Assembly (NCBI RefSeq): GCF_003856835.1
Contig: NZ_CP034145.1
Span: forward strand, 1,798,001-1,862,000
DNA from: Haloplanus aerogenes
GTDB taxonomy: Archaea; Halobacteriota; Halobacteria; Halobacteriales; Haloferacaceae
DNA: 64,000 nucleotides
Direction of reading: 5' to 3'
Shown here: piece by piece, positions 28,361 through 63,699 of the stretch
Layout of the letters: every line of letters begins with the position of its first letter
Numbering within the stretch: position 1 is the first letter of the stretch
The notes under the pieces: model-generated
What the model was told of the DNA's origin: nothing
The model's database searches: none
Seen by the model: only the letters and a program-made list of their open reading frames with translations
Translations under genes and position numbers: made by a program

Positions 28361-29965
28361 ATGGCTATTCGTGTCGACTATCGGGCGAGTCTGAGTCTCG
28401 TCGGGAGCGTTCTCAAGTATCTGGCCGTGCCGTTAGCGCTGCCGCTGGTCGTCGCTCTCGCGTACGGCGAATCGGTCGCGCCGTTTCTCGTCACCATGCT
28501 GGTGACCGTCGCGGTCGGCGGTGGCCTCGAACGCCTGCGCCCCGACCCCGATATCGGCGCCCGCGAGGGCTTCCTGATGGTCGCGGCGACGTGGCTCGCC
28601 GTGTCGCTGATCGGCGCGCTTCCCTACCTGATCGAGGCGTACGGCCTGCCGGGATTCGTTCCGGCGAGCGCCCCCGAGTCGACGCTCCGTCATCCCCCGA
28701 ACGCCCTGTTCGAGAGCATGAGCGGGTTCACGACGACGGGGGCGACGGTCCTCGGTGAGATTTCGCTCGACGCTCACGGCCACGGGATCATGCTCTGGCG
28801 ACAGCTCACCCAGTGGCTCGGCGGGATGGGGATCGTCGTCCTCGCGGTGGCCATCCTGCCGGAACTCTCCGTCGGCGGGGCGCAGTTGATGGACGCGGAG
28901 GCACCCGGCCCGGGCATCGAGAAACTCACGCCTCGCATCGCAGAGACGGCCCGGGCGCTCTGGGGGGCGTATCTCGGCTTCACCGTCCTCGAAATCGTCC
29001 TGCTCTACGGCCTGCATCTGGCGGGCATGGCGCCCGCGATGGACGTGTACAACGCGGTCGCGCACGGCCTGACGACGATGCCGACCGGCGGCTTCTCGCC
29101 GGAGGCCCGGAGTATCGAGGCCTTCTCCGCCGCTGTCCAGTGGCTCATCATCCCGTTCATGATCGCCGCCGGAACCAACTTCGCCCTGTTCTGGCACGCA
29201 CTCACGGGCGACCCGAAGCGGCTTCCGGGCGACTCGGAGTTTCGCTTCTACGTCGGGGCGATGGCGGTCCTCACGGGACTGGTCGCCGCGTTCCTGTTCG
29301 TCGGGAACGGCATCGCGACGTTCGTCCCGCCGGGGGCGACGTACGACTCCGCCTACCTCTCGGGCGTTCGGGCGACGCTGATCGGGAACGTCGAACCGGC
29401 ACTCAGACACGCCGCCTTCCAGATCGTCTCGCTCGTGACGACGACGGGGTACGCCAGCATCGACTTCAACGCGTGGGGGCCCTCGGCGCAGTATCTCCTC
29501 CTCTTTGCCATGTTCGTCGGCGGATCGGCCGGGTCGACCGGTGGCGGGATCAAGGTCGTCCGGTGGTACGTGATCCTGAAGTCGATCCGGCGGGAACTGT
29601 TCACCACGGCCCATCCCGAGGCGGTGCGCCCGGTGCGACTCGGCGGCCGAACCGTCGACGAACGCGCCATCCGCGGCATCTACGCCTTCACCGTCCTCTA
29701 TCTGGTGCTGTTTTTCGTCGCGACAGGCCTGATCTTCCTCGACGCCGGACGCGTTGGCCTCTCGCTGTCGGTGCTCGAAGCCATGAGCGCCGTCGCCGCG
29801 ACGCTCGGCAACGTCGGTCCCGGCTTCGGCCTCGTCGGCCCGATGGGGAGCTATCTCGACTTCTCGCCGGAGTCGAAGGTGTTCATGGTCGCGCTGATGT
29901 GGCTCGGCCGCCTCGAAATCCTGCCCGTGCTTGTCTGCCTGACGCCGGAGTACTGGCGGCAGTAG
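28361..29965 (+). CDS. trkH: Trk potassium uptake membrane protein TrkH
   Basis: 534 residues with four M1-P-M2 pore repeats; the selectivity-filter segments SGFTTTGATVL, TTMPTGGFS, TTTGYAS and NVGPGFG are all visible, and AGSTGGGIKVVRW is the conserved cytoplasmic loop. It conducts K+ into the cell under TrkA control, central to the salt-in strategy of haloarchaea. A TATA-like ctttaaag at 28318-28325 lies about 40 bases upstream of the ATG. The C-terminus GRLEILPVLV is intact, unlike the trkH remnant found at 31749-31939. Confidence 0.92.
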   Translation: MAIRVDYRASLSLVGSVLKYLAVPLALPLVVALAYGESVAPFLVTMLVTVAVGGGLERLRPDPDIGAREGFLMVAATWLAVSLIGALPYLIEAYGLPGFVPASAPESTLRHPPNALFESMSGFTTTGATVLGEISLDAHGHGIMLWRQLTQWLGGMGIVVLAVAILPELSVGGAQLMDAEAPGPGIEKLTPRIAETARALWGAYLGFTVLEIVLLYGLHLAGMAPAMDVYNAVAHGLTTMPTGGFSPEARSIEAFSAAVQWLIIPFMIAAGTNFALFWHALTGDPKRLPGDSEFRFYVGAMAVLTGLVAAFLFVGNGIATFVPPGATYDSAYLSGVRATLIGNVEPALRHAAFQIVSLVTTTGYASIDFNAWGPSAQYLLLFAMFVGGSAGSTGGGIKVVRWYVILKSIRRELFTTAHPEAVRPVRLGGRTVDERAIRGIYAFTVLYLVLFFVATGLIFLDAGRVGLSLSVLEAMSAVAATLGNVGPGFGLVGPMGSYLDFSPESKVFMVALMWLGRLEILPVLVCLTPEYWRQ

Positions 29966-30024: not shown

Positions 30025-30192
30025 GTGCGACGACCGGTCGCAACGGCGGTTCACGCCGCAGCCGGACTCTGTCCGGCCGTGTCCGGGGGAACGTCGTTCC
30101 CCGCCGCCGGCGACGAATCCGTCGTGATGGGGGCGAACACGGGTGGGGAGGATCGGACCAAGACGCTATACGACTGGGGTGTTGTACTGTGA
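30025..30192 (+). CDS. Candidate leaderless small protein (55 aa) or structured RNA
   Basis: A GTG-initiated frame of 55 codons (MRRPVATAVHAAAGLC... ending YDWGVVL) begins about 25 bases after a strong TATA box, as expected for a leaderless haloarchaeal gene. It has no hydrophobic segment or known motif and I recognise no family. The same DNA holds two perfect hairpins, GCCGGAC/GTCCGGC (30061-30077) and GGGGAACG/CGTTCCCC (30086-30102), so a non-coding RNA is an equally good reading. Confidence 0.4.
   Translation: MRRPVATAVHAAAGLCPAVSGGTSFPAAGDESVVMGANTGGEDRTKTLYDWGVVL
30061..30102 (+). other. Two adjacent perfect hairpins
   Basis: A 7-bp stem with a 3-nt TCT loop (30061-30077) is followed 8 bases later by an 8-bp stem around a single T (30086-30102). 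Both lie inside the candidate transcript started by the TATA box at 29996. They could shape a small RNA or end transcription from trkH. Confidence 0.45.
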
Positions 30193-30246
30193 GTGACACA
30201 CCCACACCCGTCGCTCCGCATTTTATTTCCTATGATATAGTTGCAA

Positions 30247-30258
30247 TATAAATGACAT
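30247..30258 (+). promoter_or_regulatory. TATA-like element before the PhoX-like remnant
   Basis: The AT-rich run caatataaatga sits about 30-40 bases before ATG 30287, within a longer AT-rich patch (30221-30262). It is in the right place to be the old promoter of the broken gene. Confidence 0.4.
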
Positions 30259-30286
30259 TTACCGAGCCATCCAGCGATTCATCCGC

Positions 30287-30655
30287 ATGGTCGATTTGAC
30301 TCGACGAAGCTTGATGGCAACGTCAACAGCTGCGGCGCTCGGCGCCAGCGTGGTCGGTTCCGGTGTGGCCAGCGCTGACGTTGACGAATCGGACACGCCG
30401 GGCGCCCCGAGCGTCAAGGGTGAGCTCAAACGGTTCTCGACGACGGCGTTCGGGGCCGAAGTGACCGGGCCGTTCGTGTTCGAGGACGGGTCGGTGCTGT
30501 ACAGCCTCCAGCACCCGGAGGGGGGCAATCCGGAGCCGTTCGGTCGGGCCGCAGTCGGCTACTTCAGCGGCTTCACCTTCGAGTTCGACGGTCACGGGCG
30601 GCGCGGCTCCCACGGACCCCGACGGCGACGGGGTCTACGAGGACCTCAACGGTAA
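30287..30655 (+). pseudogene. Head of a Tat-exported PhoX/DUF839-like protein, truncated
   Basis: The frame starts with a twin-arginine signal (TRRSLM, residues 5-10) ending in VASADV, then KGELKRFSTTAFGAEVTGPFV and LYSLQHP. From memory this resembles the start of haloarchaeal PhoX/DUF839 phosphatase-like proteins, normally several hundred residues long. Similarity stops near residue 102 (FEFDG); the remaining codons are a shadow of the dockerin region in another frame. The body of the enzyme is absent, so the gene is a remnant of a deletion. It keeps a TATA-like element upstream. The family call is less sure than the fact of truncation. Confidence 0.6.
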
Positions 30656-30803
30656 CGGGCGCCTCGACTACGAGGACATCGAGATCCTGTTCGACAACTT
30701 CGACGCCGACAGCGTCACGATGAACGAGTCGGCGTACGACTTCAACGAGAACGGACAGCTCGACTTCGACGACATCGTCGACCTCTACGAGGAGGTCAAC
30801 TGA
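30594..30803 (+). pseudogene. Dockerin-type domain, tail of a lost secreted protein
   Basis: In a frame shifted relative to the PhoX-like head, the sequence reads TDPDGDGVYEDLNGNGRLD then AYDFNENGQLDFDDIVDLYEEVN and stop. These are two calcium-binding dockerin repeats with aspartate/asparagine loops and a following helix, usually found at the C-terminus of large haloarchaeal secreted proteins. No start codon in this frame gives a sensible protein, so it is the tail of a gene whose front is gone. The junction with the PhoX-like head lies near 30590. Confidence 0.7.
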
Positions 30804-30805
30804 TC

Positions 30806-31027
30806 GTGTCGGCCGTCGCCGGCATCCGCACCGACCGTTCGCAGTCCGGGAGCGACGCGCCAGCGGCCGACAGCGACAGCAGTAGCACGGACGCCAGCGG
30901 GAGCAACGGCGGCAGTGACACCGACGCAGCGGCCGAGTCCACGTCCGGCGCCGGTCCCCTCTCGCCCGCGCTGATACTCGTCGCCATCGTTCTGCTGACG
31001 GCCATCGGTCTCCGGCGGCGGACGTAA
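30806..31027 (+). CDS. Ser/Asp-rich linker plus C-terminal membrane anchor (small ORF or gene tail)
   Basis: 73 residues: a hydrophilic stretch rich in Ser, Asp, Gly and Ala (about 8-48) followed by one hydrophobic helix (PLSPALILVAIVLLTAIGL) and a basic end RRRT. This is the usual layout of the C-terminus of haloarchaeal surface glycoproteins, but I do not see an exact PGF-CTERM signature. It starts at GTG 30806 two bases after the dockerin stop, in the frame of the PhoX-like head. It could be another fragment of the rearranged surface-protein gene rather than a free gene. Confidence 0.4.
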   Translation: MSAVAGIRTDRSQSGSDAPAADSDSSSTDASGSNGGSDTDAAAESTSGAGPLSPALILVAIVLLTAIGLRRRT

Positions 31028-31065: not shown

Positions 31066-31488
31066 ATGTCCCGATCCACCCCCACCACGGACGACTCGAC
31101 GGAATCGATCCACTGCGACTACATCCTCGGCGTTCGGATCGTCGAGCGAACGACCGCCGACGGTGACACCGTTTACCGGTTCGAGGCGCCACACCACGGC
31201 GGCCTGGAGTTCGACGACCCGGAGACGGCGGAACTGTACGCCGACGTCTACTTCGACGTGAACGGCTTCGACGAGGAGAAGGTCGGCGAAGAAGGCGTCC
31301 CACCGGCGATCATTCAGGCCGGCCGGGACACCCTCGCCGCGTACTTCCTCACGCAGTCGTACGGCGACCTCAACTGGGTCGCGTCGTACTACGGCATCAA
31401 ACCGGAGCGAGCCGAACGGCTGGTCAACCGGGTCCGCAAGCGCGCCAAGCAGATTCGTGACGGTGCCGCGGAGCGCGGGATGGTCTGA
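31066..31488 (+). CDS. Conserved-looking hypothetical protein
   Basis: 140 residues, soluble and acidic. The first half is beta-rich (YILGVRIVERT..., VYRFEAPHHGGLEFDDPETAELYADVYFDV). The second half is helical, with SYGDLNWVASYYGIKPERAERLVNRVRKRAKQI, which looks like a helix-turn-helix-type DNA- or RNA-binding segment. I do not recognise a family. ATG 31066 is the natural start; no strong ribosome binding site is seen. It is the only apparently intact gene within the disturbed 30-31.9 kb stretch. Confidence 0.6.
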   Translation: MSRSTPTTDDSTESIHCDYILGVRIVERTTADGDTVYRFEAPHHGGLEFDDPETAELYADVYFDVNGFDEEKVGEEGVPPAIIQAGRDTLAAYFLTQSYGDLNWVASYYGIKPERAERLVNRVRKRAKQIRDGAAERGMV

Positions 31489-31939: not shown

Positions 31940-33208
31940 CTACGCGACGGCGCTGGCCGCGCGGATGATCGTCCGCTCGTCGAAGGCGCCGCCGATCAAC
32001 TGGAGGCCGACCGGGAGGCCGTCGGCCTCGCCGGCGGGCACGGAGATGGCGGGGAGGTTGGCGAGGTTGACCGGGACCGTGTTGGCGTCCGCGAGGTACA
32101 TCTGGAGCGGGTCGTCGAGGCTCTCGCCGAGTTCGAAGGGGAGGACGGGCATCGTCGGCGACGCCAGCACGTCCGCCTCCGCGAGCGCCTCGTCGAAGTC
32201 CTGTTTCAGCCACGCGCGGGCGTCCTGCGCCTTCGCGTAGTACTTGTCGTGATAGCCAGCGGAGAGGGCGTAGGTGCCGAGGAGGATGCGGCGTTTCACC
32301 TCGTCGCCGAAGCCCTCCTCGCGGACGGCGGCGAACGTCTCGTTCCAGTTGCCCTCGGCTTCCGTCGCCGGTCCGTAGCGTACGCCGTCGAAGCGCGCGA
32401 GGTTCGAGGACGCCTCGGACATGGCGATGACGTAGTAGGCCTGCACGGCGCGTTCGACGGAGGGGAGGCTCACTTCGTGGGTCTCGGCGCCCTGTGCTTC
32501 GAGGTCCGCGAGGGCGTCCTCGAACGTCTCGACGACGCGCTCGTCGGCACCCTCGATCAGTTCGGTCGGGACGCCGATAGTGAGACCCTCGACGTCGCCG
32601 TCGGCGGCGTCGGCGTACGTGGCGTCGGCGCCCTCCTCGCGCGTCGTGGCGTCGTTGTCGTCAGGGCCGGCGATCACTTCGAGAACCTCGGCGGCGCCCT
32701 CGACGGTCCGCGCGAACGGGCCGATCTGTTCCAGCGAGTTGGCGTAGGCGACAAGACCGTACCGGGAGACGAGGCCGTAGGTGGGCTTGATGCCCACGAC
32801 GCCACAGAAGGCGGCGGGACAGCGAACCGAGCCACCGGTGTCGCTCCCGAGGGCGAAGTCGGCTTCGCCGGCGGCGACGGCCGCGGCGCTCCCGCCGGAG
32901 GAGCCGCCGGGAACCCGGGACTCGTCGACCGGATTCTTCGTCGGGCCGAACGCCGACGTTTCCGTCGTCGTCCCCATCCCGAACTCATCCATGTTGGTCT
33001 TGCCGACGATGGTCGCGCCCGCGTCCTTCAGGCGTTCGACGACCGTCGCGTCGTACGGCGGCACGTAGTCGTCGAGCATCGCGGAGCCACAGGTGGTCCG
33101 GACGCCGTCGGTCGAGATGTTGTCCTTGACGGCGACGGTGTGGCCCGCGAGGGGGCCGTCGTCCGCGCCGTCGATGGTCTCTCTGGTGATGAACGCGTCG
33201 AGGCTCAT
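31940..33208 (-). CDS. gatA: Asp-tRNA(Asn)/Glu-tRNA(Gln) amidotransferase subunit A
   Basis: 422 residues of the amidase-signature family. The Lys-Ser-Ser triad is visible: Lys28 in AVKDN, and the Ser residues in GGSSGGSAAA (about 101-110) and DTGGS (123-127). It hydrolyses glutamine to supply ammonia for transamidation of misacylated tRNA; GatB is not in the window. The ATG overlaps the gatC stop by ATGA. Its TAG stop is followed in frame by the trkH remnant, so the last few residues (AASAVA) may be at or near a rearrangement junction. Confidence 0.9.
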   Translation of the reverse strand: MSLDAFITRETIDGADDGPLAGHTVAVKDNISTDGVRTTCGSAMLDDYVPPYDATVVERLKDAGATIVGKTNMDEFGMGTTTETSAFGPTKNPVDESRVPGGSSGGSAAAVAAGEADFALGSDTGGSVRCPAAFCGVVGIKPTYGLVSRYGLVAYANSLEQIGPFARTVEGAAEVLEVIAGPDDNDATTREEGADATYADAADGDVEGLTIGVPTELIEGADERVVETFEDALADLEAQGAETHEVSLPSVERAVQAYYVIAMSEASSNLARFDGVRYGPATEAEGNWNETFAAVREEGFGDEVKRRILLGTYALSAGYHDKYYAKAQDARAWLKQDFDEALAEADVLASPTMPVLPFELGESLDDPLQMYLADANTVPVNLANLPAISVPAGEADGLPVGLQLIGGAFDERTIIRAASAVA

Positions 33209-61556: not shown

Positions 61557-61701
61557 CGCTAATCCCTGTCGCCTCGGCGGTAACAATTCTTTTGTTTTGG
61601 GGGGCGCCGACCAATCGCTGGTCGGCGGCAGGAAACACGACGTCTGTTGGGTCGGTGCCGACGGGACGGCTACGTACGTCGACTCACCCGCTCGCCCCGC
61701 C

Positions 61702-63570
61702 TCAGTCCGTGCAGTACGCGATGGCGTCGCGGACGGCCTCGCGTCGGCCGATGAACGTCAGGTGGTCGCCGAGTTCGATCCGGTCGTCCGGGTGTGGTAG
61801 ATGGTTGGTCCCGTCGCGGCTGATCAGTGCCAGGTGACAGCTCTCCGGCAGTTCGTCGCTCAGTTCGGCCACCGTCTTGCCGGCCCGTGTCGGGTCGGAC
61901 ACCTCGATCTCCTGTACGTCGCCGTCGCGGTTGAGTTCCCGCATCCACTGGGAGATCCCGGGTCGTTCGATGACGTTGTCCATCGACCACGCGATAGAGG
62001 AGGAGGTAGAGATGGCCTCGACGTCCAGATCGTCGAACGCCGCGACGTTCCCCGGGTCGTTCACGCGGGCGACGACCGTCTCGACGCCGTACGCGTTTGC
62101 GAGTTGTCCGACGAGGAGGTTCAGATCGTCGTCTCGGGTCGCCGCGACGACGACTTTCGCGTTCTCGATTCCGGCCCGTTCCAGCACGTCCCGTTCCCCG
62201 CCGTCGCCGTTGTGGACGGTGAATCCTTGCTCGCGCAGGCGTTCGATCACTTCCGTGTCTTGCTCGACGATGACCACGGATTCGCCGCGCTCTTCGAGTC
62301 GCTCCGCGAGTTCCGTCCCGACTCGCCCGCCGCCGACGACGATCACACGTTTCGGAATCACGTCGAGTGCCTGAGCGATGTGACGGGCCAGCCCCCCTTC
62401 AAACACGACGGTTACGAGGATGACGAGAAAGACCGTCCCGACGAGCGTCGTCGCCGCCGCCGGATTCCGAGGCTGGAGTTCGAGCGCGAACAGCGTCGCG
62501 ACGCTCGCGGGGACGATGCCGCGGGGACCGAGCGCACTGACGAACAGCCGTTCTCGGAGGGTCAGGCGCTCACCGACGGTACAGAGCAGGACGACTGCCG
62601 GCCGGACGAGTACCGCGATGGCGACGACGGCGACGAGGCCGCCGACGCCGAGGCCGAGGAGGTCGTCGACCGAGAGCAGGGAGGCGAGCGTGATGAACAC
62701 GAACGCGATGACGAGCAGCGACACGTCGCCTTTGAACTGCTCGACGGTGTCGCGGTAGGGGATGTCGGCGTTGCCGAGGACGAACCCGCCCGCCGCGACG
62801 GCGGCGATGCCGGCTTCGGACGCCCCGATCCGTGCGCCAAGCACCTCCGCGATGCCGTACATCACGAGCGACGACACGAGCACCATGAGCCGGGCGTTCT
62901 GTGGTGCGTTCTCGACCGCCTGCGTGCCGTACCTGAGGATGGCCCACAGGACGGCCGCGACCGCCACCCCGACGGCGACACCGAGGCCGAACCGGAGCGC
63001 GAACTCCCGAACGAGCGTCGGCAGGCCGCGCGACCCGAGGAGGACCGTCTCGAACACGACGATGGCCAGAATCGCCGCCGTCACGTCGTTGACGACGCCT
63101 TCCGTCTCGAGCGTCGAGGCGACGCGCTCGCGGACGGGCACGACGCTCATGATCGGCGTGATCACCGTCGGCCCCGTCGCGACGAGCAGCGACCCGATCA
63201 GGAGGGCGAGATCCCACGGCGCTCCCAGCGCGTAGTGGACGACGACGGCCGTTCCGACGAGCGAGCCGACGGCCCCGACCGTGATCAGCCGGAGCGTCTC
63301 GCGGCGCGCGCTCCGTATCCGCTCGATCCGCAGGTGGAAGGCGCCCTCGAAGACGATGATGGCGACGCTCAGGCCGACGATGGCCCGGAGTGCGCCTCCG
63401 GCGACGTCGAGGGTGACGAGGCCGAGTCCCTCCGGGCCGACGACGAGGCCCGCGAGAACCAGAAACACCACGCTCGGGACTCGTAGACGATCCGCGAAAA
63501 CCTGCGCGGCGACACCCAGCGCCATGATCGTGACGACGGTCCGGATGATATCGACGGCGGCGGCGCTCAC
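61702..63570 (-). CDS. Kef/CPA2-type cation:proton antiporter with RCK domains
   Basis: 622 residues. Residues 1 to about 390 are a Na_H_Exchanger membrane domain with 11-13 helices (LVLAGLVVGPEGLGL, ETEGVVNDVTAAILAI with the ion-binding NDVT/ETEG region, ALGPRGIVPASVA). From about 400 follows a TrkA_N Rossmann domain (VIVVGGGRVGTELAERL) and a TrkA_C domain. Exchanges Na+ or K+ for protons, gated by a nucleotide. GTG 63570 is the start; the longer frame runs into ribH. Fits the strong ion-transport content of the window. Confidence 0.88.
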   Translation of the reverse strand: MSAAAVDIIRTVVTIMALGVAAQVFADRLRVPSVVFLVLAGLVVGPEGLGLVTLDVAGGALRAIVGLSVAIIVFEGAFHLRIERIRSARRETLRLITVGAVGSLVGTAVVVHYALGAPWDLALLIGSLLVATGPTVITPIMSVVPVRERVASTLETEGVVNDVTAAILAIVVFETVLLGSRGLPTLVREFALRFGLGVAVGVAVAAVLWAILRYGTQAVENAPQNARLMVLVSSLVMYGIAEVLGARIGASEAGIAAVAAGGFVLGNADIPYRDTVEQFKGDVSLLVIAFVFITLASLLSVDDLLGLGVGGLVAVVAIAVLVRPAVVLLCTVGERLTLRERLFVSALGPRGIVPASVATLFALELQPRNPAAATTLVGTVFLVILVTVVFEGGLARHIAQALDVIPKRVIVVGGGRVGTELAERLEERGESVVIVEQDTEVIERLREQGFTVHNGDGGERDVLERAGIENAKVVVAATRDDDLNLLVGQLANAYGVETVVARVNDPGNVAAFDDLDVEAISTSSSIAWSMDNVIERPGISQWMRELNRDGDVQEIEVSDPTRAGKTVAELSDELPESCHLALISRDGTNHLPHPDDRIELGDHLTFIGRREAVRDAIAYCTD

Positions 63571-63699
63571 GCGACGACCACGCCCCACTGACGGTCCGTA
63601 TCCATCGTCTGCGAGAACGTGTGGGAGGGGACTACAAAGTGACTTCCCAATCCTACCCGGACAGTAAGGTCTTTGCCACCCCGCGCCGACCCGCCGGAT

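Follow-up and report, generated by a model that had tools for sequence, protein, structure and literature searches.

In the anchoring scaffoldins of cellulosomes, a cohesin fixed at the cell surface binds a dockerin. The two domains are also found outside cellulosomes: earlier work describes non-cellulosomal cohesin and dockerin proteins in Archaeoglobus fulgidus and in ANME archaea (PMC9012536), and reports that a cohesin–dockerin pair of A. fulgidus binds (PMC9705933; PMC9012536). For haloarchaea, two further papers propose a substrate-binding role for the type I dockerins on secreted polysaccharide-degrading enzymes (PMC10963439, PMC13260240). PhoX, in turn, is described as a Tat-exported iron–calcium phosphomonoesterase with a thiolate iron ligand (PMC4223295).

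Here we describe a widespread haloarchaeal pair of neighbouring genes that brings these elements together, exposed by a scar in one Haloplanus genome. Like the non-cellulosomal archaeal proteins, the pair uses cohesins and dockerins outside cellulosomes, and the predicted fold of one partner lies near the A. fulgidus cohesin 2xdh, but the haloarchaeal case is a defined neighbour pair, in which a phosphatase with both a cohesin and a dockerin adjoins a predicted membrane-anchored protein with a single cohesin. With cellulosome anchoring scaffoldins it shares the cohesin fold and the division of parts, by which the surface carries the cohesin and the enzyme the dockerin; it differs in having one cohesin, one enzyme, phosphate in place of polysaccharide and an archaeal C-terminal anchor. 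Assignment to the cellulosomes themselves was considered and rejected, the anchored gene having one cohesin and the enzyme being a PhoX. The polysaccharide-degrading enzymes of haloarchaea are likewise secreted and dockerin-bearing, whereas the PhoX has an anchored cohesin adjoining it. No description of such a dockerin–PhoX and anchored-cohesin pair was found in the literature searched, which comprised open-licence full texts. By its structure, the scar is an ordinary pseudogene made by a short-repeat deletion; the interest lies in the intact module of the relatives. With a probability of about 0.8, we read the locus as a recently inactivated surface tether, in which PhoX docked on the anchored cohesin and both partners were lost by two deletions.

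The locus lies in a 64,000-nucleotide stretch of Haloplanus DNA (contig positions 1798001–1862000; hereafter the window, with positions counted from its first letter), which was compared within a set of 12 Haloplanus genomes, G000 being that of the window. Downstream of an intact trkH (28361..29965, + strand; 88–93% identical in G002, G006 and G011), a first remnant (30287..30591, +) holds the start, the Tat-type signal and the first ~101 residues of a PhoX–cohesin–dockerin gene. The twin-arginine motif RRSLM was read from the window sequence, the TAT_signal_seq model scoring 12.2 bits, under its cut-off of 16.7. A second remnant (30586..30803, +) holds the dockerin and stop of the same gene, in a frame running from 30591, with two calcium-binding loop–helix (EF-hand-like) repeats that can be read directly. 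The head ORF (30287–30655, 122 codons) ends at a stop in the shifted frame after the junction, and the dockerin frame is open up to its stop at 30801–30803. The original prediction, of a Tat head running out of frame into two dockerin repeats with a junction near 30590, is confirmed by the window's frames and by matches in relatives, and the join was found at 30586–30591.

The head is 91% identical to residues 1–103 of an intact 894-aa protein in G001 (E 8.7e-58), with DNA identity of 81% to a relative over 30183–30591, and the dockerin is 94% identical to the C terminus of its intact counterparts in G001 and G002 (E 2.3e-39; DNA 90.5–91.7%). Conservation extends to the sequence before the start of the head. 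Matches of this strength mean that the observation is not a product of chance. In seven Haloplanus genomes (G001, G002, G003, G005, G006, G010 and G011), a single 885–900-aa ORF begins with the head and ends with the dockerin, in the order Tat signal, PhoX, cohesin-like domain, dockerin. A deletion as the cause is therefore borne out by the intact relatives, but the further proposal that a single event joined the ends of a phoX-like gene and a separate, neighbouring dockerin gene does not survive. It draws on the adjacency of head and dockerin in different frames and on nothing else; against it, the two form one ORF in all seven Haloplanus relatives that have both, and a single ORF encodes PhoX and dockerin at 40 of the 78 haloarchaeal loci that were classified. 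A comparison of relatives between trkH and gatA, as originally suggested, did find an intact gene, though as a single ORF and not as separate phoX-like and dockerin genes. With intact single ORFs in relatives, we reject the two-gene fusion, the probability of which is practically nil.

The intact gene occupies the trkA/trkH–hypothetical–gatA locus in G001, G002, G006, G011 and G010, with local variation: trkH is itself gutted in G001, extra trk-like genes intervene in G011 and trkH is missing in G010. Elsewhere, the gene lies beside gatA in G005 and away from trkH–gatA in G003. The trkH of G001 (L021, 5923–6130) keeps no more than a short head and tail, having undergone an internal deletion of its own next to an intact PhoX module. 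Across the 12 genomes, seven carry both genes of the module and G000 carries remnants of both; G009 has a PhoX without the tail and no anchored cohesin, and a search of the Haloplanus genomes returned no match to either gene in G004, G007 and G008. No intact copy was found elsewhere in the window genome at E 0.001, the only further matches there being a cohesin–dockerin gene pair at 1512–1514 kb. This pair (L146, 6973–9540) consists of an intact PKD–cohesin–cohesin–dockerin gene followed by an anchored cohesin, and stands beside a very long ORF.

At the junction (30586..30591, +), the window reads GAGTTCGACGG|TCACGGG. Short repeats had been expected at the breakpoint, and the hexamer CGACGG borders the lost stretch on either side, in six of six relatives inspected (G005 not among them). 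The loss amounts to 2,168 bp relative to G001 and, because this is not a multiple of three, head and tail are out of frame. Random breakpoints drawn around both ends shared at least six bases in 892 of 200,000 pairs, and the intact gene contains 13 copies of CGACGG. Judged by these sequence features, the junction resembles those left by ordinary deletions between short repeats. A single gene has lost an internal stretch between 6-bp repeats and bears the marks of a pseudogene, with intact orthologues at the same locus in relatives, its frame destroyed and its functional body gone. A 6-bp repeat at the junction and a broken frame are what microhomology-deletion pseudogenes have in common with it; unlike them, two adjacent genes of one module were here struck separately.

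The second strike was absent from the original prediction. In the relatives, the next gene encodes a protein, of 245 aa in G001, with a signal, a single domain, a linker and a hydrophobic helix at the C terminus. The window retains only residues ~187–244 of the G001 protein (30845–31021; 53% identity, E 9.4e-8), that is, the linker and C-terminal membrane helix (30845..31027, +), inside a GTG-initiated ORF (30806–31027) that is probably accidental. The start, the signal and the cohesin domain were removed by a further deletion, distinct from the first and located downstream of the dockerin, with a net loss of ~0.58 kb relative to G002, ~0.60 kb relative to G006 and ~0.66 kb relative to G001. 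Alignments to these three genomes put this junction at approximately 30849..30887 (+); because the linker is too variable, the exact point cannot be placed, nor can shared bases be resolved. Alignments to G001, G002 and G006 jointly span 23955–64000, and over this part the window shows no other deletion of more than 150 bp relative to all three; several are seen relative to one or two of them. At 61592–63658, the window has ~2 kb that are missing at the same place in all three genomes.

Downstream of the remnants follow an intact 140-aa protein (31066..31488, +) and, on the opposite strand, an intact gatA (31940..33208, −; 89.5–94% identical in the six relatives that have gatA at the locus). 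As the scar occurs in one genome and is known from its assembly alone, it might conceivably reflect a sequencing or assembly artefact, with bases present in the organism but lost in assembly. Such an explanation is very unlikely for a genome that is 99.88% complete in two contigs, and in which there are two separate deletions between intact flanks, with the short-repeat signature of natural deletions.

What the second gene had encoded was approached through an AlphaFold2 model of the neighbour protein of Haloplanus ruber (G010), built from 30 sequences. The model is confident over residues 41–170 (block means 91–98) and has a terminal helix at 220–239. Foldseek gave 103 matches at E ≤0.001, and the 50 listed consist without exception of cohesins, alone or in complexes (best E 8.7e-9). 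Structural alignment by VIA-align gave Z 16.1 against 6kge (r.m.s.d. 2.1, 128 aligned) and Z 15.3 against the A. fulgidus cohesin 2xdh. Among 30 anchored proteins, three touched the Pfam Cohesin entry PF00963 (best E 0.0034) and four touched PGF-CTERM (best E 3e-8), and a hydrophobic C-terminal stretch is present in 33 of 34. The anchored-cohesin alignment had no match at E 10 among the sequences of solved structures, so the cohesin fold rests on the predicted model. By that model, the neighbour in the relatives is a membrane-anchored cohesin.

The enzyme of the intact gene scores 75.1 bits (G001) and 55.5 bits (G002) against Pfam PhoX, for a cut-off of 24, and its model aligns with Pseudomonas fluorescens PhoX (4a9v) at Z 20.4 over 400 residues with 18% identity; for some other propellers, DFPase among them, scores go up to Z 22.5 over ~274 residues with ~9% identity. 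The column aligned to PhoX Cys179, which we take to be the iron ligand, is a cysteine in 78 of 78 loci, and the aligned glutamate columns, whose numbering and catalytic role, like those of the cysteine, we presume, are kept in all 78 as well. Family score, predicted fold and aligned residues identify the enzyme of the intact relatives as a putative PhoX phosphatase. With P. fluorescens PhoX (3zwu/4a9v), it shares the propeller fold, the Pfam family and the aligned Cys and Glu columns; it differs in its additional cohesin and dockerin, and possibly in a circular permutation. Residues 38–84 of the haloarchaeal protein match PhoX 513–560 with 8.2 bits, not significant alone, the window head matches positions 455–514 of the 515-position Pfam PhoX profile at E 0.17, and the model aligns from residue 102 onward to PhoX from residue 8, ending at PhoX 518. 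An N-terminal strip corresponding to the C-terminal end of PhoX, taken together with the model alignment, suggests that the haloarchaeal propeller is circularly permuted relative to that of Pseudomonas. In that case, the window would retain the signal together with the permuted strip.

The anchored cohesin has a homologue within the phosphatase, in the domain that separates PhoX from dockerin (33–40% identity). Of the 50 Foldseek matches listed for a model of the whole PhoX–cohesin–dockerin protein, a listing that leaves the model range unstated, 49 were cohesins and the other an integrin. Another protein encoded in the same genome scores 32.5 bits against Dockerin_1, above the cut-off, and the dockerin is related to it (E 1.4e-10); the window tail itself scores 15.9 bits against this Pfam entry (cut-off 22.9, E 0.016), and the profile of the intact protein matches dockerins of solved structure no better than at E 0.14.

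How regularly the two genes occur together was assessed in the best 80 of 91 loci, 78 of which were classified. The other two show a PhoX–cohesin–dockerin with an anchored cohesin (L059) and a PhoX alone (L090). Both tail and downstream anchored cohesin are present in 34 loci, the tail only in six and neither in 37; one locus lies at a contig edge (L069, kept outside the Fisher test and the tree). All 40 dockerin-bearing loci, in which two of the Haloplanus genomes recur (L060, H. ruber G010; L061, Haloplanus sp. G005), also carry the internal cohesin. Anchored cohesins thus follow dockerin-bearing PhoX in 34 of 40 loci and PhoX without a dockerin in none of 37. A Fisher test gives 8e-16 for this coupling, a value that ignores relatedness, and the fair figure comes from tree-based pairs: on a tree of 83 PhoX domains, built quickly with a simple model, the tail changes eight times, and in the eight independent pairs the anchored cohesin moves the same way in 7–8 and never in the opposite direction (sign test, p 0.008–0.016).

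From this coupling and the predicted folds, we infer that the dockerin binds the anchored cohesin. In the intact module, the phosphatase's dockerin would dock on the anchored cohesin and keep the enzyme at the cell surface, where phosphate freed from organic phosphate would stay close to the cell, and additional dockerin proteins, or more copies of the enzyme, may attach to the cohesin within the phosphatase. In the window species, two separate deletions gutted both genes, the first also breaking the frame.

The anchored cohesin is not obligatory for a dockerin-bearing PhoX. Six dockerin loci (L068, L071, L073, L075, L076 and L136) are without it, and a search of their five genomes for a separate cohesin gene found only the cohesins inside PhoX ORFs and weak matches to the linker and tail end of the profile, which counts against an obligatory pair. 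These exceptions also fit an alternative in which the dockerin mainly binds the internal cohesin of PhoX, forming head-to-tail chains, or some other partner, so that the anchored cohesin would be a chain terminus or have no role. The presence of an internal cohesin at all 40 dockerin-bearing loci points the same way, as does its higher tree-distance partial correlation with the dockerin (0.64, against 0.54 for the anchored cohesin; both beyond 2,000 permutations), although the dockerin's preference for one or the other cohesin cannot be read from these distance correlations. Such an arrangement nevertheless seems doubtful to us, as the anchored cohesin changes with the tail in 7–8 of the 8 independent pairs, and both genes were struck in the window. 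Docking on the anchored cohesin remains our preferred reading, and the regularity with which the anchored-cohesin gene follows a dockerin-bearing enzyme gives such dockerins a concrete, testable role as surface tethers in high salt, outside cellulose degradation. A fuller version, to which we would give even odds, sees in the module a minimal, single-enzyme surface machine: a permuted PhoX with its dockerin on the adjacent anchored cohesin, able to chain through its own cohesin, gained and lost as a unit, and caught in the window just after both partners were deleted.

The window thereby offers a natural loss-of-function case with both partners gone, and the loss appears young. Neither the ends of the module nor the small neighbouring gene show visible decay. 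At the 55 head and 49 dockerin columns invariant among the seven intact relatives, the remnants have no amino-acid changes; by the same measure the seven intact species themselves score 0–18 in the head and 0–4 in the dockerin, and, as some of them also score 0, the zero count shows no more than a resemblance of the remnants to intact genes. Comparisons with the window give a mean pN/pS of 0.22 for the head and 0.19 for the dockerin, against 0.27 and 0.28 among intact genes. The deletion is therefore probably recent or, less likely, the pieces are still used; undecayed remnants could also mean continuing selection on them. The module was lost probably because it was dispensable in the window species.

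The scar might instead encode a functional mini-protein, a Tat head and dockerin made as one by frameshifting, for which the lack of visible amino-acid decay in either remnant and the conserved region upstream of the start might be cited. Against this, the dockerin frame has no start giving at least 50 aa, neither of the cohesins remains, nor does the catalytic body, and a head-only search of 60 genomes found no second short head among 26 places: the window's is the sole short frame (139 aa), the other 25 matching places lying in open frames of 389–976 aa. We regard such recoding as extremely improbable. Conservation of the fused arrangement in many species, named at the outset as the observation that would speak against a deletion, is thus not what these 25 further places show. 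The arrangement was likewise found at none of the 78 classified loci, a set picked by whole-gene similarity that could miss gutted copies.

The intact 140-aa protein is a regular neighbour of PhoX in haloarchaea, and has been left in the window as an orphan after loss of the module. It is encoded near PhoX, upstream or downstream, in 75 of the 78 classified loci (best 80 of 91); of the three others, one lies at the edge of a contig, and in two the protein accompanies a second copy of PhoX. Strong matches to the PhoX head and to the 140-aa protein occur in an identical set of 22 genomes among 60 relatives; weaker matches do not coincide, with three further genomes for the head and four for the small protein. 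It had no match at E 1 in Pfam and NCBIfam.

Finally, the PhoX tree departs from the genera in places: the PhoX of G003 groups with that of Halobaculum gomorrense, that of G001 with Haloarcula vallismortis, and that of Halorubrum coriense with those of Haloplanus (L035, L081, L058, L057 and L021). These groupings suggest that the module has been transferred.
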